26,782 nucleotides of DNA, taken from a virus. This document shows, piece after piece, positions 1,237-26,782 of this stretch; within the stretch, counting starts at the first letter, position 1; every line of letters begins with the position of its first letter. Both the position numbers and the translations under genes were made by a program. The stretch lies in the IMG/VR virus record IMGVR_UViG_3300030430_000366, positions 1-26,782 of that record. The stretch is one strand, 5' to 3'. The notes beneath the pieces were generated by a model. The model searched no databases, had not been told where the DNA came from, and saw nothing but the letters and a program-made list of their open reading frames with translations.

Positions 1237-3494
1237 GACTACGACTATGGAACTTTGCTGAGTCAGAACAATATGACTTAGACCTCTATGAGAACGCCCC
1301 CATCAACCTGAACTATCGCTTCACCGATGTCAGCCAGGTCAATAAGTCAAAGGGCAGCTTCTCTCAGACCTTCCGCGTGCCAGCTACCAAGAAGAACTTG
1401 GACTTCTTTGGTGCGGTCATCAACCCCGATGTGAGAGAGTCATCAGGTCTTATCAATGCGAACTGGAACATCAAGCGCAAGGTTCGAGCTGAACTATCCT
1501 ACAAGACCATTCCCATCATGAATGGTAGTGTACAACTCAAGAGGGTGGTGCGTCAGAAAAAGCAATTCTTTGACTTGGAACTTGTCTTCTTTGGTGAGAG
1601 CGTAGACATCGCTCAGAGCATCGGACAAAAGAAGTTGAGTGACCTCAATCTTAACTCTATCAACCATAGCGTAACTGCCGTGAATATCATTCAAAGTTGG
1701 TTTGAGACGGGCAGCTTTCCTTTGAATGGAGATGTCAAATATGGCCTGATGGACAAAGGCTCTAACTGGTCGGGAGATGTATGGAATGCTACTGACCCCT
1801 TGCTACAAGCCGAGTTTACTCCCTACCTCAGAGCGTACTACATACTCAACAAAATCTTCACCGAGGCAGGCTTCAGCATCTCAAGCACCTTCTTGAATAC
1901 CGATGCTTTCCAAGACATCTATATGCCGTTGTTTTCGGGCGGGCCTGACCTTCTCAAGAGCAATGACTTTGGCGACAATACGGCCAAAGCTGGACTAGTC
2001 TCACAACAAACAACTACGACGATGTTTGCTGAAACGGTTGAACTAGTAGATACGGTGGATGGAGGACACGACCCAAGTTCACGCTTCAACAATTCGACCC
2101 ACAAGTACACCGCACCAGCAAATCAATTTGTAGTGATTACAGGATTTGTTATAGTCTCAAACGGTGTAGTACGGGTTGTCCACACCATAGGGAGTACTCA
2201 AACCACTTTGCTCACGCTTGATGGAATCTCAGGCTTCCCCTCTCCCAACAACCCTATTGAGCAGATCTATATGCCAGCAGGATCGACCTTGCATATGGAG
2301 GTTGTTGACACTACGGGTAGTGGGGCCACCGTGGCGGGAGGCAACCAAGCCTTTGGCGGGGGAACGCATCTATCAATCGAATTTGCATCAGACCCTATAA
2401 GCGGGTTCACGATGGACACGGCTCTCAATATGCCTGACTTCAAGCAGATTGATTTTGTCAGCTCACTCCAAAAAATGTTCAACCTCGTCTTCATCCCCGA
2501 CGCTCTTGATCCGACCAAGATTACGATAGAGCCATTTCAAGACTTTATAGCGTCAGGGACTAAGAAGGATTGGACGAACAAGATTGACTTCACGAGTGAC
2601 ATCGTCATTGAGCCTACTACCGACATCCAATCTTCAAAGTACAAGTTCACCCATGCCGAGGGTCAGGACTTCTTAAATGATGCGATACAACAAGGTGCGG
2701 GTAGGGTGTATGGTCAAATGGAGATACTCGACTTGGAGAACGATTTTAGCAGAGGAGACTACGAGAGTAGAACAGGGTTTGCGCCACACACGATGAGTCT
2801 ATTGCCTGACAATAGCTTCATCTTGCACCGATGTATCCAAGCCAATGGAGCAGGTGTGTCAAAGCCTAAGCCACGGCTTGCGTATTGGAATGGTGTGAGC
2901 AGTCAGTACCCTGACATTGTATTGCGGCTTGACGACGGCTCTAATGGCGCTCCACAACCCTTCTTCCCTGTTTTCAGTAATTACTCAGCAACCGCAGCCT
3001 CGGAGGTTTTGCCTACCGTCTCTAGCCTTGACCTCAACTTTGGGTATGAGTTTCCTATAATCCCCAATATCGCGCACCCGTTCAACACCCTCTACCAAAC
3101 CTATTGGGCTGGGCTGGTCAATGAGTTGTACTCATCAGACGCAAGGATGCTGACTTGCAAGATGCTCTTGACTACCCAGGACATCCAAGACTTTCAATTC
3201 AATGACCAAATCTATATTGAGGGGACTTACTACCGAGTGCTTGAGATAACAGGCTTTGACGCTACTCAGGTTGCCCCATGTAGTGTGAAGCTGATCAAAG
3301 TCCTTAGTGACATCGCGGATTGCGATGACATACCGACTGGTGTTAGTGCCCAAGGCTTCATCACCTTCAACAACTCAACTACGGACTTTGGCTCGGAAGA
3401 GTGTTGCGTGAAGTATGGGTACATCTACTTTCCTGATAGAGCTGGAGGCAACCCCCGTTGTCTTACCGCTGGCACTTTCCCGTCCCCCGTCTAG
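1230..3494 (+). CDS. Large tail hub/baseplate-like protein
   Basis: A 754-residue protein starting at an ATG that overlaps the previous gene by 7 bases. The N-terminus (about residues 15-60) has the pattern 'DLYENAPINLNYRF ... KGSFSQTFRVPATKKN', which I recall from a family of large tail-associated proteins in Bacteroidota phages. The rest is beta-rich with Gly/Ser/Thr loops. The C-terminal ~30 residues carry a paired Cys (EECC) and look like a separate small module. Together with the upstream 441-residue protein it probably forms the distal tail or host-contact structure. No enzymatic motif is visible. The structural role is well supported by context; the exact part is inferred. Confidence 0.75.
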   Translation: MLRLRLWNFAESEQYDLDLYENAPINLNYRFTDVSQVNKSKGSFSQTFRVPATKKNLDFFGAVINPDVRESSGLINANWNIKRKVRAELSYKTIPIMNGSVQLKRVVRQKKQFFDLELVFFGESVDIAQSIGQKKLSDLNLNSINHSVTAVNIIQSWFETGSFPLNGDVKYGLMDKGSNWSGDVWNATDPLLQAEFTPYLRAYYILNKIFTEAGFSISSTFLNTDAFQDIYMPLFSGGPDLLKSNDFGDNTAKAGLVSQQTTTTMFAETVELVDTVDGGHDPSSRFNNSTHKYTAPANQFVVITGFVIVSNGVVRVVHTIGSTQTTLLTLDGISGFPSPNNPIEQIYMPAGSTLHMEVVDTTGSGATVAGGNQAFGGGTHLSIEFASDPISGFTMDTALNMPDFKQIDFVSSLQKMFNLVFIPDALDPTKITIEPFQDFIASGTKKDWTNKIDFTSDIVIEPTTDIQSSKYKFTHAEGQDFLNDAIQQGAGRVYGQMEILDLENDFSRGDYESRTGFAPHTMSLLPDNSFILHRCIQANGAGVSKPKPRLAYWNGVSSQYPDIVLRLDDGSNGAPQPFFPVFSNYSATAASEVLPTVSSLDLNFGYEFPIIPNIAHPFNTLYQTYWAGLVNELYSSDARMLTCKMLLTTQDIQDFQFNDQIYIEGTYYRVLEITGFDATQVAPCSVKLIKVLSDIADCDDIPTGVSAQGFITFNNSTTDFGSEECCVKYGYIYFPDRAGGNPRCLTAGTFPSPV

Positions 3495-3522
3495 TAAGAA
3501 ATATGAAGGAGAGAAGTTATAT
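3494..3522 (+). promoter_or_regulatory. Candidate phage promoter: GTAAGA-N17-TTATAT
   Basis: In the short gap after the hub-like gene, GTAAGA (3494-3499) is followed 17 bases later by TTATAT (3517-3522). The same arrangement occurs at 7211, 22625 and 19003. Here the second box ends one base before the ATG at 3524, so a transcript starting a normal distance downstream would miss that start codon and mainly serve the tape measure gene. That is a weakness of the promoter reading at this site. Confidence 0.35.
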
Positions 3523-3523
3523 C

Positions 3524-3679
3524 ATGGAAGCGATTGACCTCCTGGTCAATGACGCAGAACCGATGAAGAAACCCTACCAAGTACCACGATGGGTAGACTA
3601 TCTAGCTACCAGCATCTATCTCCTTGCCTATGGCTTGGGGGTGGTGTGGATCGTGTGTGCCGTAATTGAATTGCTCTGA
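3524..3679 (+). CDS. Small single-pass membrane protein
   Basis: A 51-residue protein. I chose the ATG at 3524 because it follows a purine-rich AGGAGAGAAG tract; ATG 3503 is an alternative adding 7 residues. Residues ~1-28 are charged and polar; ~29-50 form one hydrophobic helix (YLLAYGLGVVWIVCAVIELL). Its stop overlaps the tape measure start as TGATG, so the two are likely translationally coupled. Function is unknown; its place between hub and tape measure suggests a tail-assembly or membrane-entry accessory, which is inference. Confidence 0.6.
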   Translation: MEAIDLLVNDAEPMKKPYQVPRWVDYLATSIYLLAYGLGVVWIVCAVIELL

Positions 3680-5658
3680 TGGCTGACGCTAAAAAGGTGA
3701 TGACCCTTGAGGTCGATATGGATACTGGTGAAATCACCAAGCAGCTCAATGAGGTAAAAGAACGACTTGAAGACGTTGGTGACTCGGCTGGTGATGTAGG
3801 CAAGAAGGGGGGCAAGGGGTTTGCAGGCTTGGGCAAAGCGGCCAAAATGGGTGCAACAGGCTTCAAGCTATTGGGCAAGGCTATCATTGCCACAGGCATT
3901 GGGGCTATTGTAGCTATTGTCGGGGGGCTTGTTGCCAAGCTACTCGAACTGAAGCCAGTCACCGACGCAATAGAGAAGGGAATGGCTATCCTTGGGGCAA
4001 CCTTCAAGGTGCTTGCTGACCTTGTCATGCCCTTGGGTCAAACCCTGATTGATGCCTTCAACAATCCAAAGGAGGCCGTTGAAAGCCTTAGAGAGAAGTT
4101 CGTTGCCTTGGGTGACTATATGAAGACGCTTCTTGACGCTTCTATCAACCCCGTCAGACGAGGTCTCCTTAACATCAAGAGGGCTGCCTTTGAAGCGGCC
4201 ATCGGCACCAAGGAGTTTTTTGGTGGCGACGCTTCAGAGATGAAGCAAGCCGTTAGAGAGATTGATAACCAACTTGCCGACCTTGTAGTCAAGCAAGAGG
4301 AGAACAAGGAGAAACTTAAAGAACCATTTGTAGAGCTTGCCACCTACATCAAAGAAGAGGTCATCCCAGCCGTCGTCGAAAATGCCACGGCAGCCGTCGA
4401 CTTGGCTGACAAGCAGATTAAGCTACGAGATGCCCAACGTGCATTGAACCTTGAGCAAGCTACCTCACGGGCTGAGATAGCAGAACTAAAGCGGCAGTCT
4501 GATGACTTGACGCTCTCTATCGAGGAGCGTGTAGCAGCCGCACAAGAAGCAGCCGCAAAAGAGGAGGCATTGAGGGCAAAGAGAGAGGGTCTCATCAATA
4601 GGGAGATAGCCTTGCTGAGAGAAGAACAAGCCATTCAGGGCGAGACCGAGGAGAGGACTCAGCGGATCAATGAGCTTCGGATTGAACAACAAGCCATCAT
4701 TGAGGAGGGTCTAGGTATCCAAACTGAGATGATGACCAAGGTGCAGGGTCTAGAGCAAGAGTTGGAAGATGCGCGTATCGCATTTGCTGACGCTCAGGAA
4801 GCCCGTGAACGTGGCTTGAATCAACTCAAGGCTACGTTGCTCAAAGATGAAGAGTCCATACGAAAGGCAGCACAAGAGCAAGAGTTGGCCGACTTAGCCC
4901 TACACTATGAGGAGCAACTACGTCAAGCGGAGAAGTATGGCTTTGATACGAAGGAACTACTAGAGACCCAACAAGCCGAGCTTGACGCGATGGAGGAGGC
5001 TCATCGCTTGGCTGACCTTGAGGCCGATATGGAGCAGAGGGAGAAAAAGCTACAAATGGCTATGGAGGGTCTGAGCGCATTGCAAGCGTTGAACGAAGCC
5101 TTCAGTTCACAAACCATTGCAGAGCAAGAGGCAGAGGCCGCGTTGCGGACTCAGATTGATGAGACCGAGAACGTGGCTGAGAAGAACCGTCTTATCAAGA
5201 AGTTCAACGAACAACAAGCACTTGAGACCAAGGCACAAAAGAGAGCGTTCAATAGGGGTAAGGCTTTGCAAATTGCACAAGCCCTCATCTCTACCTACCT
5301 CGGTGCTACCAAAGCATTCACCTCCCAACTGATTCCAGGAGACCCAACGAGTCCTATCAGGGCGGGTATCGCGGCTGGTATTGCGGTGACAAGTGGACTC
5401 GCTCAAGTGGCGGCTATCAAGAAGCAAAGATTTGAAGCACCAGCCCCTATGCCTTTTGTCGAGCCAGCGAGCGTAGCTGACTCAGGTGGTGGGGGTGGTG
5501 GTGGAGGTGCTGGTACGGGGGCAGCCCCTACCCTTGACCTATCCTTTTTGGGAGATGGGGCAAGCACCAACCTTCAAGCCTTCGTTCTAAGCAACGAAGT
5601 CACCAACTCCCAACAACAAGACCAACTCATTTCAGACCAAGCAAGCCTTCCAGGATGA
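3679..5658 (+). CDS. Tail tape measure protein
   Basis: A 659-residue protein with the classic tape measure layout. A charged N-terminus of ~45 residues is followed by a Gly/Lys/Ala region and a long hydrophobic stretch (about residues 60-92, GAIVAIVGGLVAKLLEL). Next comes a long Ala/Glu/Gln/Lys/Arg-rich coiled coil (about 190-530), a second hydrophobic patch and a poly-Gly run near residue 610. Tape measures set siphovirus tail length at roughly 0.15 nm per residue, so this would give a tail of about 100 nm. It overlaps the protease gene by an ATGA. It lies upstream of the capsid genes and far from the chaperone-like gene at 23184, an unusual order. Confidence 0.88.
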   Translation: MADAKKVMTLEVDMDTGEITKQLNEVKERLEDVGDSAGDVGKKGGKGFAGLGKAAKMGATGFKLLGKAIIATGIGAIVAIVGGLVAKLLELKPVTDAIEKGMAILGATFKVLADLVMPLGQTLIDAFNNPKEAVESLREKFVALGDYMKTLLDASINPVRRGLLNIKRAAFEAAIGTKEFFGGDASEMKQAVREIDNQLADLVVKQEENKEKLKEPFVELATYIKEEVIPAVVENATAAVDLADKQIKLRDAQRALNLEQATSRAEIAELKRQSDDLTLSIEERVAAAQEAAAKEEALRAKREGLINREIALLREEQAIQGETEERTQRINELRIEQQAIIEEGLGIQTEMMTKVQGLEQELEDARIAFADAQEARERGLNQLKATLLKDEESIRKAAQEQELADLALHYEEQLRQAEKYGFDTKELLETQQAELDAMEEAHRLADLEADMEQREKKLQMAMEGLSALQALNEAFSSQTIAEQEAEAALRTQIDETENVAEKNRLIKKFNEQQALETKAQKRAFNRGKALQIAQALISTYLGATKAFTSQLIPGDPTSPIRAGIAAGIAVTSGLAQVAAIKKQRFEAPAPMPFVEPASVADSGGGGGGGGAGTGAAPTLDLSFLGDGASTNLQAFVLSNEVTNSQQQDQLISDQASLPG

Positions 5659-12624: not shown

Positions 12625-12748
12625 ACTGAAGGGAAGAGTACACGTCCTAGAGCGTGACAGGTCAGAGATTAAAGACCTTGTCAAGGAGTGCGTAGAGGGT
12701 ATTCAAGAGTTGAAGCTACTCATAGCGCGAAAGGGATATGACTCTTAA
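12536..12748 (+). CDS. Holin-like protein with one membrane helix and a coiled coil
   Basis: A 70-residue protein. Residues ~3-23 form a hydrophobic helix (VILTSLLPSIGAILGVWV), followed by a charged coiled coil (~25-66, NTEVAKLKGRVHVLERDRSE). This layout is shared by small phage membrane proteins of the hemolysin/holin-like group next to endolysins. It overlaps the M15 peptidase gene by 11 bases, so it is part of the lysis unit. Either a holin or a spanin-like or regulator role is possible; the assignment rests on topology and neighbours. Confidence 0.55.
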   Translation: MELEVILTSLLPSIGAILGVWVKMNTEVAKLKGRVHVLERDRSEIKDLVKECVEGIQELKLLIARKGYDS

Positions 12749-13112
12749 ATACTTCAAGAGAGAAGAGTTTGACTCGCCCGACAAGCCAGGCTCAGGGGAG
12801 ATGATGGACGATGACTTCTTGGAGCGTCTAGACATTGCGCGTGACATCTATGGGTATCCCATGATTGTGACGAGTGGCTTTCGCACGGTGGAGCATCATC
12901 GAGACCTTACCCAGCGTGGATACAAAACCTCCAAGAATAGTAGCCACCTCCTTGGCATAGCCGCTGACATTCATTGTGACGATAGCCGAAAGAGGTACTT
13001 GATGATTGAAGCGTTCCTTGATGCTGGCTTTAGACGCGTTGGAATAGGCTCTACGTTCATTCATGTAGACCTCGACGAAGCCAAACCTCAAGATGTGATT
13101 TGGACATACTGA
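12738..13112 (+). CDS. Endolysin: M15-family zinc D-Ala-D-Ala peptidase
   Basis: A 124-residue single-domain protein with the hallmarks of the M15 family. These are SGFRT at 46-50, the SSHLLGIAADIH box at 68-79 giving zinc ligands His70 and Asp77, and FIHVDLD with the third ligand His109. The fold cleaves peptide cross-links of peptidoglycan. There is no signal peptide, so it needs a membrane-permeabilising partner; candidates flank it at 12536 and 13825. Length fits the small M15 peptidases of Bacteroidota phages. It overlaps the previous gene by 11 bases. Confidence 0.9.
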   Translation: MTLKYFKREEFDSPDKPGSGEMMDDDFLERLDIARDIYGYPMIVTSGFRTVEHHRDLTQRGYKTSKNSSHLLGIAADIHCDDSRKRYLMIEAFLDAGFRRVGIGSTFIHVDLDEAKPQDVIWTY

Positions 13113-15800: not shown

Positions 15801-16043
15801 ATGAAGAGAAAGCATCATGAAAACGACCTCAAGAAGTTCATCAAGAAGAAGTTTGGATCGCAGTTGAATTGCGCCAAAGCCCTTGAGGTACGGCCTCAGA
15901 CCGTGTACAACTGGCACACGGCAAACCCAAGGGGAATGCTGAAGTATGCCCCTGAGATTGTTAGCCTATGTGATACCACTTGGACTCAACTGAGTGCCGA
16001 GGTGTTGCACCGAGAAAGCGAACTGAAAACTAAGAAACGATGA
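15801..16043 (+). CDS. Small helix-turn-helix protein (Cro-like)
   Basis: An 80-residue basic protein. The segment FGSQLNCAKALEVRPQTVYNWH (about 18-39) fits a Cro-type helix-turn-helix, with the second helix VRPQTVYNWH as the reading helix. The surrounding residues are Lys/Arg-rich, as in small DNA-binding regulators. It is coupled to the nuclease gene by ATGA. No integrase or other lysogeny gene is present, so an early-gene regulator is more likely than a prophage repressor. Confidence 0.65.
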   Translation: MKRKHHENDLKKFIKKKFGSQLNCAKALEVRPQTVYNWHTANPRGMLKYAPEIVSLCDTTWTQLSAEVLHRESELKTKKR

Positions 16044-16753
16044 CCCCAAGTAGACCACTCTCATACTCTAGCCTCAAAGCGTTTGGCAAGAGTCCCAATC
16101 ACTATCTCTCATACATCGCTGGAGACTCTAAACCGAGTCCAGCTATGGAACTAGGAACGGCCATACATTGCGCGGTGCTAGAGCCTGACCGATTTGATGT
16201 AACGTATGACCTCAGCGAACATCGCAAAAACACCAAAGCCTATCTTGAGATGGCTGGTCAACGCCCTGAGACAACCTTTCTCAACTCGTCTGACTGGAAC
16301 ACGGTGAGTAGGGTCAGCGATGCGGTGAAGATGCAAGACCACCACGACCTCATATCCCTTGCGGATCGCTATGAAGTAGAGGTCACGGGTGACATCAAAG
16401 GTCTTCCCTTTCGTGGCTTTGTTGACGCGATGGGTGTGAACTACCTAGTAGACCTCAAGACGTGTCGAGATGCAAGCCCCCAAGAGTTTCAGCGTAGTGC
16501 CTGGAACTTTGACTACTACTTGCAAGCTGCCGTCTATTGCGAGTTGACGGGCTTGCGTGACTTTTGGATAGTTGCTTGTGAGACTCAAGCACCATACAAC
16601 GTGGTCAGCTACTACATCTCTGACGAGTACCTCGACAGGGGTAGAGCCAAACTCTATGACCTGATTGAGAAGTTCAAGGCTTGGGATGGTGAGCCACAAG
16701 GCTACGCTCAGGCAGACAACTTCTTCACCCTTGATGCTCCACGCTGGGCATAA
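16040..16753 (+). CDS. PD-(D/E)XK exonuclease, RecE-like
   Basis: A 237-residue protein with the layout of RecE/exonuclease VIII-type nucleases. The N-terminal LSYSSLKAFGKSPNHYL and ELGTAIHCAVLEPDRF (His43) are typical. The core has FRGFVDAMGVNYLVDLKT, giving the catalytic Asp and the D-x-K pair, followed by YYLQAAVY as the conserved Gln/Tyr helix. Such enzymes resect double-strand ends for recombination. No annealing protein (RecT/Bet) is recognisable beside it; the OB-like protein at 15002 is the only candidate. It overlaps the next gene at TAATG. Confidence 0.8.
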   Translation: MTPSRPLSYSSLKAFGKSPNHYLSYIAGDSKPSPAMELGTAIHCAVLEPDRFDVTYDLSEHRKNTKAYLEMAGQRPETTFLNSSDWNTVSRVSDAVKMQDHHDLISLADRYEVEVTGDIKGLPFRGFVDAMGVNYLVDLKTCRDASPQEFQRSAWNFDYYLQAAVYCELTGLRDFWIVACETQAPYNVVSYYISDEYLDRGRAKLYDLIEKFKAWDGEPQGYAQADNFFTLDAPRWA

Positions 16754-17442
16754 TGGAAAGGCAATTCAAAGGCATTTGGATTGATGCTGAGATATGGCTA
16801 CACCCTAGGCTATCGGCAGTAGACAAGGTGCTACTTGCTGACATACACTCCTTCACAGGAAATGGCAAGACCTTCTACAAGACGAACGACACCCTTGCAC
16901 AAGAGTTGTTCGTGTCAGTCAAGACGGTCTCACGCTCTATGAAGAAGCTAAGTGAGATGGGTTTGATCCGTATAGGTGGGACGAAGCGCAAGAGGCTTGC
17001 GTGGTCGCTCTACCAATCGGGACAAATTGACCATGATGCTGGACACAATGTCCTTGATACGAGTCAAAATGTCTCTTCAAACGGGTCAGATTGTCCCACT
17101 ACTAATACAAGTACTAGTCCAAGTACTGATACATCTACTGTAAGGGAATTGGTTTACCCTTTTGAAGATGAACGATTCAAGAAGGCATGGGCTGAATGGA
17201 TACAAGAGCGACGAGATAGGAGGCTACGCAAGTACACCTTGAGGGGTGAGCAAAGCGCACTCAGCAACCTAGGCAAAATCTCCAACCTCGACCTTGAGAC
17301 TGCCCTAGCCATCATTCAACAAAGCATTGCCCAAAACTATCAAGGGCTATTCCCAATCAAAGATGACAAAAGAACTAGCAAAAAATTCGATTCACTCAAG
17401 TATAGAGACTATCTCAGCACCCTCGGTCAAGATGACCCTTGA
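16753..17442 (+). CDS. Replication initiator-like protein with N-terminal winged helix
   Basis: A 229-residue protein. Residues ~5-85 form a winged helix of the type found in phage replication proteins: WIDAEIWLHPRLSAVDKVLL, then NDTLAQELFVSVKTVSRSMKKLSEMGLI as helix-turn-helix. A low-complexity Ser/Thr/Asp linker (~100-130) joins it to a helical C-terminal domain (FKKAWAEWIQERRDRR on). Phage O-like initiators and DnaD-like loaders share this design. No origin iterons were found by eye inside or beside it. It overlaps the next gene by 11 bases. Confidence 0.7.
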   Translation: MERQFKGIWIDAEIWLHPRLSAVDKVLLADIHSFTGNGKTFYKTNDTLAQELFVSVKTVSRSMKKLSEMGLIRIGGTKRKRLAWSLYQSGQIDHDAGHNVLDTSQNVSSNGSDCPTTNTSTSPSTDTSTVRELVYPFEDERFKKAWAEWIQERRDRRLRKYTLRGEQSALSNLGKISNLDLETALAIIQQSIAQNYQGLFPIKDDKRTSKKFDSLKYRDYLSTLGQDDP

Positions 17443-17971
17443 GAAGGCATGGGATACCGGACTCAACGTGAAGGGCGCGTTCAAGAGAGAACCTCAACTC
17501 GTCCACATGACCCTCACCGCACTCCTCAAAGATGCGGTTGACTACCTAGAAATGAACAAATCTTTCAGGCATGAGGGTGATTACATCGAAGCGGTGAGCT
17601 ATCTCATTGAGGAGTTTCCCGTCATGAAGCTCGAAGAATGGAAGGTCATTTGCACACGCTTGAAAGCGGGGTACTATGGCAAGATGTACGAGCGTCTCAA
17701 GCTGCCTGAGCTGGTAGATATATTCAAGAGCCACGAGTCAGAGCGTGCCGAGTACATGGAACGTCAGCACGATCGATCCAAAGCCCAGGTTAAAAACTTG
17801 CCACCTATAACCCCTGAGCAGCAGGCTAAGTGGAAGGCTTTTGTCAACTCTCTTGACTTGCCTCAACGCGCCCCCGAACGCTGGGAGTTTATCCCATACC
17901 CCAACACCGACATAGAAGAATACGAACAACGCAAGAGAGATGAGCAAGACACTACACGAGAAGACTCTTGA
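17432..17971 (+). CDS. Replication-region protein, unknown function
   Basis: A 179-residue, mostly helical protein. I chose ATG 17432, which overlaps the initiator stop by 11 bases; an upstream frame extension to 17327 would overlap too far. The centre (YIEAVSYLIEEFPVMKLEEWKVICTR split by acid residues, then GYYGKMYERLKLPELVDIF) resembles, from memory, proteins next to initiator genes in Bacteroidota phages. The tail is highly charged (YEQRKRDEQDTTREDS). A helicase-loader or initiator partner is possible but not shown by any motif; no Walker box is present. Confidence 0.65.
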   Translation: MTLEKAWDTGLNVKGAFKREPQLVHMTLTALLKDAVDYLEMNKSFRHEGDYIEAVSYLIEEFPVMKLEEWKVICTRLKAGYYGKMYERLKLPELVDIFKSHESERAEYMERQHDRSKAQVKNLPPITPEQQAKWKAFVNSLDLPQRAPERWEFIPYPNTDIEEYEQRKRDEQDTTREDS

Positions 17972-18095
17972 GGCAACCGTAAAAGCCTTGCGTGAGCAAA
18001 TCGCTGACATGAGTGCTGACATGGTTGAAGATGCCAAGACTATAAAAGACTTGAGAGAGCGACTGGAAATCAGTACCCAAACAGGACACCTATGA
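17940..18095 (+). CDS. Small coiled-coil protein
   Basis: A 51-residue gene starting inside the previous one (32-base overlap) and ending in an ATGA overlap with the methyltransferase remnant. Nearly all of it is a charged heptad-like helix (KTLEATVKALREQIADM, then VEDAKTIKDLRERLE). Function is unknown. Its coupling to the methyltransferase start shows that the methyltransferase was once the next gene of this operon. Confidence 0.6.
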   Translation: MSKTLHEKTLEATVKALREQIADMSADMVEDAKTIKDLRERLEISTQTGHL

Positions 18096-18292
18096 CTCTT
18101 GAAAAAGACACCATCTATTGCGAGGACTGCCTATAAACAAAGAGCAAGATGCCTGATGACTTTGTAGATGTAGTCATCACCTCGCCCCCCTACAATCGCA
18201 AGCGAAATGATAAGTACGCTCACTATGACGACAGGATCAAGGACTACCAACCCTGCCGAGTTGAGGGTGTTCAGCAACCAACTCTCACTTGA
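18092..18292 (+). pseudogene. Remnant of a DNA methyltransferase (TSPPYN type)
   Basis: The frame from ATG 18092 begins MTLEKDTIYCEDCL, then meets TAA (18134-18136), and continues KSKMPDDFVDVVITSPPYN, with YAHYDDRIKDYQ soon after. 'D-x-I-x-x-x-D-C-L ... VDVVITSPPYN' is the start and catalytic motif IV of N6-adenine/N4-cytosine DNA methyltransferases. Homology stops near 18249, where an unrelated ~40-base tail runs to TGA at 18292. Usual family length is 200-400 residues, so the S-adenosylmethionine-binding part is missing. A restart at ATG 18149-18151 would make only ~47 residues. It is inactive as it stands. Confidence 0.8.
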
Positions 18293-18301
18293 TAGCTGAC
18301 C

Positions 18302-18544
18302 TCATACCCAAGTGATCTTGATGGTGAGAGCCATGTCTTGAAGGTCTAGAAACTCGTCACGCACAATCTTGTCAATGATGGGGTAGAGATAGACGTGGGC
18401 TACGTCGCTCTCACTCGTGTCAGTTACGATCCGTTGTATGCCGTTGTCCCCTATGCCCGCATCAATGTGGATGAATTTGAAGTCCTTGGACACGACGGCC
18501 TTGACAACCTGATGGTATTGCTTCTTTGGTCTGAAGTCATCCAT
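18302..18544 (-). CDS. Third gene of the minus-strand cassette, unknown function
   Basis: An 80-residue protein whose ATG shares a base with the stop of the upstream minus-strand gene (TGATG). It begins with a basic helix (MDDFRPKKQYHQVVKAVV) and continues with short strands (KFIHIDAG, AHVYLYPIIDKIVRDEFLD) and a hydrophobic C-terminus. It has no Cys, no signal peptide and no known motif that I can name. Coupled overlap supports it as real. Its stop lies 9 bases from the end of the methyltransferase remnant, so the two converge. Confidence 0.6.
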   Translation of the reverse strand: MDDFRPKKQYHQVVKAVVSKDFKFIHIDAGIGDNGIQRIVTDTSESDVAHVYLYPIIDKIVRDEFLDLQDMALTIKITWV

Positions 18545-18702
18545 CAGAGAGGGGGTTGTTGTGCGAGCATTTCAAGAAAGTCGTACATACCTATCAGGCC
18601 GTCACCATTGAAGTCAAGCTCGAATGCCTGACTACCAGGATGTGGGCTTGTGCCATACGCTTGTAGCAACAAGAGCAAGTCCATGATGTATGTAGACCAC
18701 AT
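18544..18702 (-). CDS. Miniature dockerin/EF-hand-like protein
   Basis: A 52-residue protein. Residues 30-46 read DFNGDGLIGMYDFLEML. Asp30, Asn32, Asp34, Gly35, Ile37 and Asp41 fall at positions 1, 3, 5, 6, 8 and 12 of the dockerin/EF-hand calcium loop, followed by the expected helix. Residues 8-17 (DLLLLLQAYG) look like the helix ending a first half-motif. So it resembles one dockerin unit without the rest of the protein. An AGAGGGG sequence precedes ATG 18702. It overlaps the next gene at TGATG and lies 30 bases after the lipoprotein gene. Dockerins normally bind cohesins; none is seen here. Confidence 0.65.
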   Translation of the reverse strand: MWSTYIMDLLLLLQAYGTSPHPGSQAFELDFNGDGLIGMYDFLEMLAQQPPL

Positions 18703-18732
18703 ACCCCTCTAACGAGATTTGATGTCAAAAGG

Positions 18733-18993
18733 TTAGTCAATCACCACTTGAAGAGCAAACTGAGTAGGGTCATCGGTAGCCACTAGACGATATTCCGTCT
18801 TGAAGTATGGGTCAATGTACACGGCATCCAGTTGAAAAACCTTATGAAAGGTCTTCACAGGATAGGTCGAGTCCCACTCGGTTTCTAGAATCAACTCACA
18901 CTTGTAGCGTTCGGGATGCTCGTAGAGCCGAGAGGGTGCGGACGCGATGCAACCTGAGAGGAAGACCACGAAAATCAATAGTACTTGTTTCAT
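18733..18993 (-). CDS. Small lipoprotein
   Basis: An 86-residue protein with a lipoprotein signal: MKQVLLIFVVFLSGC, where Leu-Ser-Gly-Cys is a good lipobox and Cys15 would be lipidated after cleavage by signal peptidase II. I chose ATG 18993; ATG 19014 adds 7 residues before the signal. The mature part is polar (YEHPERYKCELILETEWD) and ends FALQVVID. It is the first of three genes on the minus strand, opposite to every other gene here. Phage lipoproteins often alter the host surface, for example in superinfection exclusion; that role is inferred only. Confidence 0.75.
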   Translation of the reverse strand: MKQVLLIFVVFLSGCIASAPSRLYEHPERYKCELILETEWDSTYPVKTFHKVFQLDAVYIDPYFKTEYRLVATDDPTQFALQVVID

Positions 18994-19032: not shown

Positions 19033-19055
19033 TATATGTATTTATATTAAAGCCC

Positions 19056-19460
19056 GTGCCAACGGAACGCCAAAGGCTGGTGAAGAAACTAGACCAAGTA
19101 TTCAGCCGATATATCAGAACACGGGTCGCAGATGAAAGGGGCTTCTCCCCTTGTTTTACGTCAGGTATTGTCAAGCATTGGACTGAGATGGACGCAGGCC
19201 ATTTCATGAGCCGCGCTTGCATGAGTACTAGGTGGAACGTCAAGAATGTGCAATGCCAGTCCAAGAGGGACAATGCCTTTAGGGGTGGAGAGCAATACAA
19301 GTTCGGTCAAGAGTTGGACAAGAAGTATGGGGAGGGTACGGCTGAGGAGTTGTACCACCTATCCAAGACAACCAAAAAGTACGGGGTGCATGAACTGAGG
19401 GAGATGATAGAAGTATTCAAAGTCGAGTGTGAAAGAATCAACGAGGAGAAAGGACTTTGA
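19056..19460 (+). CDS. NinG/Rap-like recombination nuclease
   Basis: A 134-residue protein like lambda NinG (Rap), a structure-specific endonuclease that processes recombination junctions. Seen: FSRYIRTRVADERGF with CFTSG in the first 40 residues, then DAGHFMSR, NVKNVQCQ and RGG with spacing typical of the family, and KFGQELDKKYG after it. The start is a GTG at 19056; no in-frame ATG lies between it and the TAA at 19005. It is the first gene after the minus-strand cassette and overlaps the sigma gene by 32 bases. Confidence 0.78.
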   Translation: MPTERQRLVKKLDQVFSRYIRTRVADERGFSPCFTSGIVKHWTEMDAGHFMSRACMSTRWNVKNVQCQSKRDNAFRGGEQYKFGQELDKKYGEGTAEELYHLSKTTKKYGVHELREMIEVFKVECERINEEKGL

Positions 19461-25928: not shown

Positions 25929-26782
25929 TGGCAGCACAATTCGACTCCCATCCCGCTGAGACATATATGCCAGCGAACCAAGCCCTCATCTACACGATTA
26001 GTGATACGGGGGGTGCGGTCAGCGCGTCACACCGATTCGTAGTAGAGGTGGTGAGGGGGGCATCAACCGACATTGCCAAGGTCTACCTCACGGCCAATAC
26101 AAACGGGAAGGCTCACTTCGACTTGTCTAGTATCGTCAAAGACCTCTTGACTACTGACCACCTTCAGAGCGATGGGACTGGCACACTATGGGAGATGCCT
26201 ACTATCGTTGACCATAGCCTGACAGGTACGGCAAAATTCACCGTGAAGGTTGGTACGTTCAACGGATCAACTGAGACCCTCAACCAAGCAAGCAAGTCTA
26301 TCTACCTGGTCAATGGCTCTCAGCAAATCCGTGAGGGTCTACACCCCGACTTCTCAACCTACTACCCCACATCAACAAGCGTGAAGTCTTGGCTGACCGA
26401 GAGGACAAAGGATAGCACTAGTATGAGTGTTGCAGGCACGGTAATCGATGGGGCTATACGCTACAAGTTCGCGGACGAAGATGAAGCAGTAGCGGCATGG
26501 ATACACGATGACACGGTAATAAGTGGACTTGATACAAGAGTAGGGTATGTCCTCTATGACTCGTCTAACACTATCCTACAAGCTACGGCAGCAACTATTG
26601 CATCGAGTGGAGGCAATGCCCTTGCGTCCACCGCGTATGGTCAGAAGCTGCACTTCACGGGGCTTGCTCCAGCATCGCTAAAGTTTTCGTCAAGTAATCT
26701 CCCTTCAAACAACCCGACTTGGGCATACTACCTCTTGTACCTCGATTCGGGGGGGTTCACACAAAGAAGAAGTCACATCTTT
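25928..26782 (+). CDS. Putative tail/baseplate structural protein, 3' end cut by the window
   Basis: The frame runs from ATG 25928 to the window end (285 codons, no stop). The first 30 codons are unique; from 26018 it copies the gene at 1-1236 in the same frame with 18 amino-acid changes in 255 by hand count. Changes include Asn to Gly, Thr to Leu, Ser to Asp and Ala to Asn. The start MAAQFDSHPAETYMPANQALIY supplies the N-terminus missing at position 1. This is the same gene seen a second time from a different strain, not a second gene, if the genome is circular. Confidence 0.82.
   Translation, partial: MAAQFDSHPAETYMPANQALIYTISDTGGAVSASHRFVVEVVRGASTDIAKVYLTANTNGKAHFDLSSIVKDLLTTDHLQSDGTGTLWEMPTIVDHSLTGTAKFTVKVGTFNGSTETLNQASKSIYLVNGSQQIREGLHPDFSTYYPTSTSVKSWLTERTKDSTSMSVAGTVIDGAIRYKFADEDEAVAAWIHDDTVISGLDTRVGYVLYDSSNTILQATAATIASSGGNALASTAYGQKLHFTGLAPASLKFSSSNLPSNNPTWAYYLLYLDSGGFTQRRSHIF
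26018..26782. repeat. Right copy of the divergent terminal redundancy
   Basis: It pairs with 1-765 at about 93% identity and with no indels. Its left edge is simply where the window's first base begins, not a visible junction in the sequence. This copy continues a complete gene start, showing that the left end of the window is an arbitrary cut. Confidence 0.9.

Follow-up and report, generated by a model that had tools for sequence, protein, structure and literature searches.

Three genes on the minus strand of a 26,782-nucleotide viral sequence from IMG/VR (the window, meaning the whole stretch that was analysed) form a real, selected unit, and this unit is very probably an acquired, accessory cassette of the moron type. 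The first cassette gene, LIP (18733..18993), encodes an 86-aa lipoprotein with a signal peptide and a lipobox. DOC (18544..18702) encodes a 52-aa half-dockerin in which one complete 12-residue EF-hand/dockerin loop, DFNGDGLIGMYD, is flanked on either side by a helix, the helices being read from the sequence. T (18302..18544) encodes an 80-aa protein whose model contains three strands and one long helix, with an uncertain fold class. A gap of 30 bases separates LIP from DOC, and base 18544 is common to the DOC stop and the T start. According to the ORF list, overlapping plus-strand ORFs tile the rest of the window.

An earlier note on this DNA, made from the sequence alone, had described an opposite-strand three-gene cassette in an otherwise plus-strand genome, and this description is borne out by protein conservation and purifying selection. 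LIP, DOC, and T are each conserved at the protein level across many contigs. All three are under purifying selection, such that every pair has a dN/dS below 1 and the medians are 0.08–0.12 (0.078 for T over 55 pairs, 0.087 for DOC over 65 pairs, and 0.123 for LIP over 10 pairs). On these two grounds, the three ORFs are not a product of chance. The two ends of the window, positions 1–765 and 26018–26782, align over 766 columns with 93.5% identity. Most likely the record covers the whole of a circularly permuted genome of ~26.0 kb, with its ends contributed by two strain variants.

Further loci were collected from IMG/VR contigs with T, LIP, and DOC queries and with alignments of T and DOC. After copies with identical surroundings were dropped, 45 loci remained, the window included, in which genes were called with profiles at E under 1e-6, together with two weaker T matches (E 3e-4 and 4e-4). 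The window LIP used alone as a query of viral contigs, with exact short patterns, retrieved nothing; LIP was nonetheless found beside DOC. LIP-DOC-T is complete in 29/45 loci, and the partial loci comprise eight with DOC-T, one with LIP-DOC (L086), three with T alone, and four with DOC alone. Two of the last group (L028 and L106) cannot be judged, as their contigs end 176 and 167 bases past DOC, respectively. Gene order and strand are identical in all 45 loci, and DOC lies directly ahead of T in all 37 co-occurrences. The LIP-DOC spacer measures 29–33 bases, with the exception of L086, in which the two genes touch. Searched for as a unit in other phages, the three genes are thus coherent and not scattered. 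DOC-T persists best of all pairs and could form the functional core; the loci with DOC and T but no LIP, and those with T alone, argue against LIP being needed for the role of T.

The genes flanking the cassette, the cassette itself excluded, sort the 45 loci into five unlinked sets at a linkage threshold of two shared genes and 20%. These are the lineage of the window with its far kin (10 loci), the 60-kb phages (18 loci, including two with DOC only), a UDG-bearing set (11 loci), L062/63/66/74 (4 loci), and L057/58 (2 loci). Some sets have single genes in common at low identity (for example, one gene at 25–31% between the window and the 60-kb phages), so the phages may be distantly related.

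In a profile built from one representative of each of four sets, the window not included, between-set identity followed from ATG-150 stays near the background of ~0.4 until about ATG-70 to ATG-60, reaches 0.60–0.69 over ATG-70 to ATG-30, where a promoter-like motif lies, and is 0.65–0.72 at the end of T. It falls from 0.72 to 0.42 at the T stop and is at background (~0.4) beyond. The DNA common across sets therefore starts ~65 bases before the LIP start, with the promoter-like motif, and stops at the T stop codon; the fixed unit is the motif plus LIP, DOC, and T, ~0.75 kb in all. A search of 29 loci for the ends of a mobile element gave no 9-mer direct repeats common to both flanks, and inverted 9-mers between the flanks occur in 2/29 loci and are taken as chance.

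In the window, the corresponding place (19041..19052, minus strand, ~48–60 bases before the LIP start) has instead an A+T-rich element, TTTAATATA, that is promoter-like. It is proposed from its position and its conservation in relatives, and a sigma-70 consensus scan did not pick it up. Other backbones have CATAANNATCATTATA where the lineage of the window has the A+T-rich element, and loci of the L071/L068 kind have a variant of it. CATAANNATCATTATA is found once in each of 71/115 loci, many of which overlap, and once, at the cassette and with no second copy, in 12/14 whole records. The idea that CATAANNATCATTATA marks a wider regulon was dropped: a scan for the exact 17-mer gave 80 new loci, of which 11 contain cassette parts; the remaining 69 seem to match by chance, often through similar stretches that recur. 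No terminator was found after T in the window.

Gene trees, run in quick mode, require 8 changes of backbone label for T, 5 for LIP, and 10 for DOC, where the minimum is 4. The window LIP groups with L087, near L020 and L079, all same-genus relatives. The window T groups with the 60-kb phages (SH-aLRT 93, not starred), and the window DOC is not a member of the clade of L087, L079, and L020, which is starred. Strong branches are few in the T and LIP trees, and some branches are long; overall, the trees suggest, not strongly, that single genes, the window DOC and T among them, have been exchanged between unrelated phages.

The cassette occupies a defined site. Its left side is an accessory slot whose edge is a conserved plus-strand gene (17327..17971), and its right edge is a NinG-like gene (PF05766, E 1.6e-11) on the plus strand at 19056..19460, divergent from the cassette. 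The variable slot adjoining the cassette holds, in the window, the remnant of an N6/N4 DNA methyltransferase gene (18092..18277, plus strand). This N-terminal quarter is 59% identical over 61 residues to residues 3–63 of the intact 232-aa enzyme of L084 (PF01555, E 1e-33), and it has an in-frame TAA at 18134–18136; the remainder of the enzyme is missing.

The earlier note held that the cassette had replaced the 3′ part of this methyltransferase gene and that it was acquired late; the replacement does not hold, and late acquisition is not supported. L020, L079, and L087, whose core proteins are mostly 70–97% identical to those of the window (same genus by eye), and L084, a distant backbone relative with a terminase at 61%, all carry the cassette in the same place and orientation, between the variable slot and NinG, beside other, apparently complete genes. 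The slot contents in these relatives are Dcm with a PAPS-reductase-like gene, Dcm with a SAM-dependent gene, Dcm, or an intact N6/N4 methyltransferase, all named by eye except for the PF01555 methyltransferase. Because the four relatives keep the cassette with differing neighbours, it is the neighbouring slot that varies, and by this comparison the cassette is older in the lineage of the window than the present methyltransferase content. No same-genus relative lacking the cassette was found, the three closest NinG matches being L020, L079, and L087. In L225 and L227, the homologue of the 17327 gene directly abuts NinG with no gene in between. Both are distant (NinG at 42–47% and the 16753 gene at 33–37%), and both have homologues of the genes 15801 to 17327. 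Since the junction is closed in these two phages, the slot and the cassette form a joint accessory region.

LIP carries the lipobox FLSGC, whose cysteine (Cys15) is invariant in 21/21 aligned relatives and which is followed by ~70 residues of an unmatched family. LIP has no PDB profile match, no Foldseek match in PDB under E 0.001, and no tblastn match in 50,697 GenBank phage records; against PHROGs, phrog_1119 'Cor' is reached only at E 0.36 and over the signal peptide only.

DOC is, by its sequence, dockerin-derived and harbors a calcium loop. The type I dockerin 12-residue loop D-x-N/D-x-D/N-G-x-I-x-x-x-D is present in 23/23 rows, such that positions 1, 3, 5, and 12 are Asp/Asn throughout and Gly6 and Ile8 are invariant. 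DOC resembles a type I dockerin (PF00404) in having the loop D-x-N-x-D-G-x-I-x-x-x-D and a flanking helix. In contrast to type I dockerins, which have two loop-helix repeats, DOC has a single loop and is a free-standing protein of 52 aa with no evident signal peptide or export signal. In the window it scores 16.9 bits against PF00404, below the cut-off of 22.9, and no cohesin partner was found in 22 records of these phages. DOC has no GenBank phage match. It had been proposed as the calcium-binding partner of a surface lipoprotein; it has the calcium loop but no evident signal peptide, so it is at most a putative partner of LIP. An RNA hairpin around the DOC start was dropped as a candidate, as it seems to be explained by the conserved protein start. 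In L083 (4620–4936), two different DOC genes stand in tandem ahead of T, the first being of a variant type that is also found in L071. In L075, an M43 metallopeptidase (3086–4321; PF05572, E 2e-19) is encoded directly upstream of T, and the C-terminal part of this protease is dockerin-like, with what looks like a full loop pair.

T likewise shows no evident signal peptide or export signal. It is single-copy in 20/22 records searched and belongs to no assigned family in Pfam, PHROGs, and others, the best PHROG E being 0.0057, in one of 20 members. It has no PDB profile match of weight and no GenBank phage match, and neither T nor DOC has a homologue in 84,980 bacterial and archaeal species genomes at the thresholds used. 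The PADLOC anti-phage defence models gave no family for six proteins. The T model has a mean pLDDT of 78 and a pTM of 0.50 and has no Foldseek match under E 0.001 in PDB or BFVD. A fold assignment from VIA-align (best Z 3.2; COMMD, Pur-alpha, HpFlaG, and others) was rejected as not interpretable.

The carriers point to Bacteroidota. Sorting tails of the type IX secretion system (T9SS) are encoded in 14/27 carrier records: TIGR04131 in five (three over the cut-off) and TIGR04183 in ten (eight over the cut-off), with one record having both. Secreted proteins with T9SS tails of type A or type B, which would be host-surface proteins made by the phage, are encoded at L071:3714–5471, L086:3079–4395, and L115:2994–4367 and in records G001–G007, G010, G011, and G015. 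In L071, L069, L077, L078, and L086, such a protein is the product of the gene just ahead of the cassette or T. Because the phages encode these tails, their hosts are taken to be Bacteroidota with a T9SS. T9SS cargo is thus encoded in many of the same phages and sometimes directly upstream of the cassette; in contrast to this cargo, the cassette proteins have no T9SS tail, and there is no cargo in the lineage of the window (0/5 records). The window terminase is nearest to those of Bacteroides phages (40%). In the 60-kb phages, one of the genes convergent with the cassette encodes a thioredoxin-like protein that scores slightly below the Pfam threshold; others among these convergent genes have signal-peptide-like starts.

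Tyrosine integrase (PF00589) was not found in any of the 27 carrier records, many of which are fragmentary, and was found in 14/14 control genomes; this result makes lysogenic conversion unlikely. The designation as a moron therefore fits in structure, given the unit, the unlinked backbones, and the closed site in distant relatives, and does not fit in the lysogenic sense. A change of the host as a lysogen, as the earlier note envisaged, is further disfavored by the absence of T and DOC homologues from the species genomes.

As an overall explanation, it is tentatively proposed that phages of Bacteroidota with a T9SS, themselves probably lytic, carry the cassette as a self-contained accessory operon that acts at the host envelope. 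The cassette would be transcribed from its own promoter. LIP would be anchored in the host envelope, and DOC, a calcium-binding piece presumably taken from dockerin modules of secreted proteins, would work with T, probably in the cytoplasm. The three proteins would jointly alter the host envelope or block rival phages. The envelope role in lytic infection, the leading reading of function, is suggested because LIP is a lipoprotein and surface-protein neighbours occur in other phages; that the cassette changes the envelope or blocks rivals during lytic infection is possible, if somewhat unlikely, and the case for it is weakest in the lineage of the window itself, to which the T9SS context does not extend.

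The rival that survives best is an unlikely one, in which DOC-T is the working core, a cytoplasmic pair for host takeover or gene control, and LIP is a separate passenger. T would bind nucleic acid or a host factor, and DOC would tune T with calcium. DOC precedes T wherever the two co-occur, even with T only 26–32% identical to that of the window (L091, L094, and L095), LIP is missing in 8 of these 37 loci, both proteins lack an evident export signal, and Pur-alpha and a guide-RNA binding protein (Z about 3) are among the weak structural matches of T. However, the model of T is of modest quality and each of its fold matches is weak. LIP is the leading gene of the operon, at its near-constant spacing, in 29 loci, and L086 retains LIP and DOC without T.

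It is distinctly unlikely that the genes are a virion or assembly module, in which DOC and T would be structural proteins or chaperones for surface-exposed fibres and LIP an envelope helper. In the L081–L083/L113 phages, the gene ahead of DOC and T is indeed very large, with 683 to 1526 aa in view, and exported or adhesive proteins are encoded nearby in many carriers. However, in the window and in the 60-kb phages the operon is opposed in direction to the genes on one side at least, and in the latter it has its own motif. Moreover, virion genes are seldom exchanged singly between unrelated phage backbones, which is at odds with the swapping of single genes suggested here. A lysis accessory, with LIP as an outer-membrane spanin subunit or lysis regulator, would suit a small phage lipoprotein in a short operon but is very improbable, as the cassette has no evident transmembrane partner, DOC and T exist without LIP, and the endolysin-like gene of the window (named by eye) lies elsewhere, at 12738–13112 on the plus strand.

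Small-lipoprotein morons of phages include T5 Llp, phi80/N15 Cor, and lambda Bor. Like these, the cassette encodes a small lipoprotein and is a self-contained unit between conserved phage genes. Unlike these, it has three genes, two without an export signal, its carriers are without tyrosine integrase, and its hosts are Bacteroidota; no sequence similarity was found. LIP shares a lipobox with superinfection-exclusion lipoproteins and has no sequence homology to known ones. Searches of openly licensed PMC papers turned up nothing on a dockerin-like phage protein of the DOC kind or on a LIP-DOC-T cassette, and neither LIP nor T is convincingly matched by any family in Pfam, PHROGs, NCBIfam, or PADLOC or by a protein of GenBank phages. 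A more specific proposal, which we regard as doubtful, would make the cassette a system of Bacteroidota phages not described before, directed against other phages or at the host envelope. It would be tagged by its promoter and would exchange single genes among unrelated lytic phages. At its centre would stand a piece of dockerin taken over from proteins secreted by the T9SS and serving, in dependence on calcium, as a decoy or adaptor at the cell surface or the secretion machinery.

The wider interest is that one small accessory unit is common to phages of 26 kb and 65 kb without linked neighbouring genes, and that signs of shuffling of its single genes are seen in uncultivated phages of T9SS-bearing Bacteroidota. 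At ~0.75 kb, the cassette is small enough for testing whole.

A further feature, absent from the lineage of the window, is a stem in the leader of LIP. Among 19 leaders less than 80% alike, nine (L054, L055, L060, L053, L065, L067, L074, L070, and L102) have, within the 26 bases before the LIP start, a stem of at least 5 pairs ending 0–2 bases from the start codon, compared with an average of 2.1 and a maximum of 7 for shuffled leaders in 2000 trials. The stem sequences differ among these leaders, and a role in translational control is possible.
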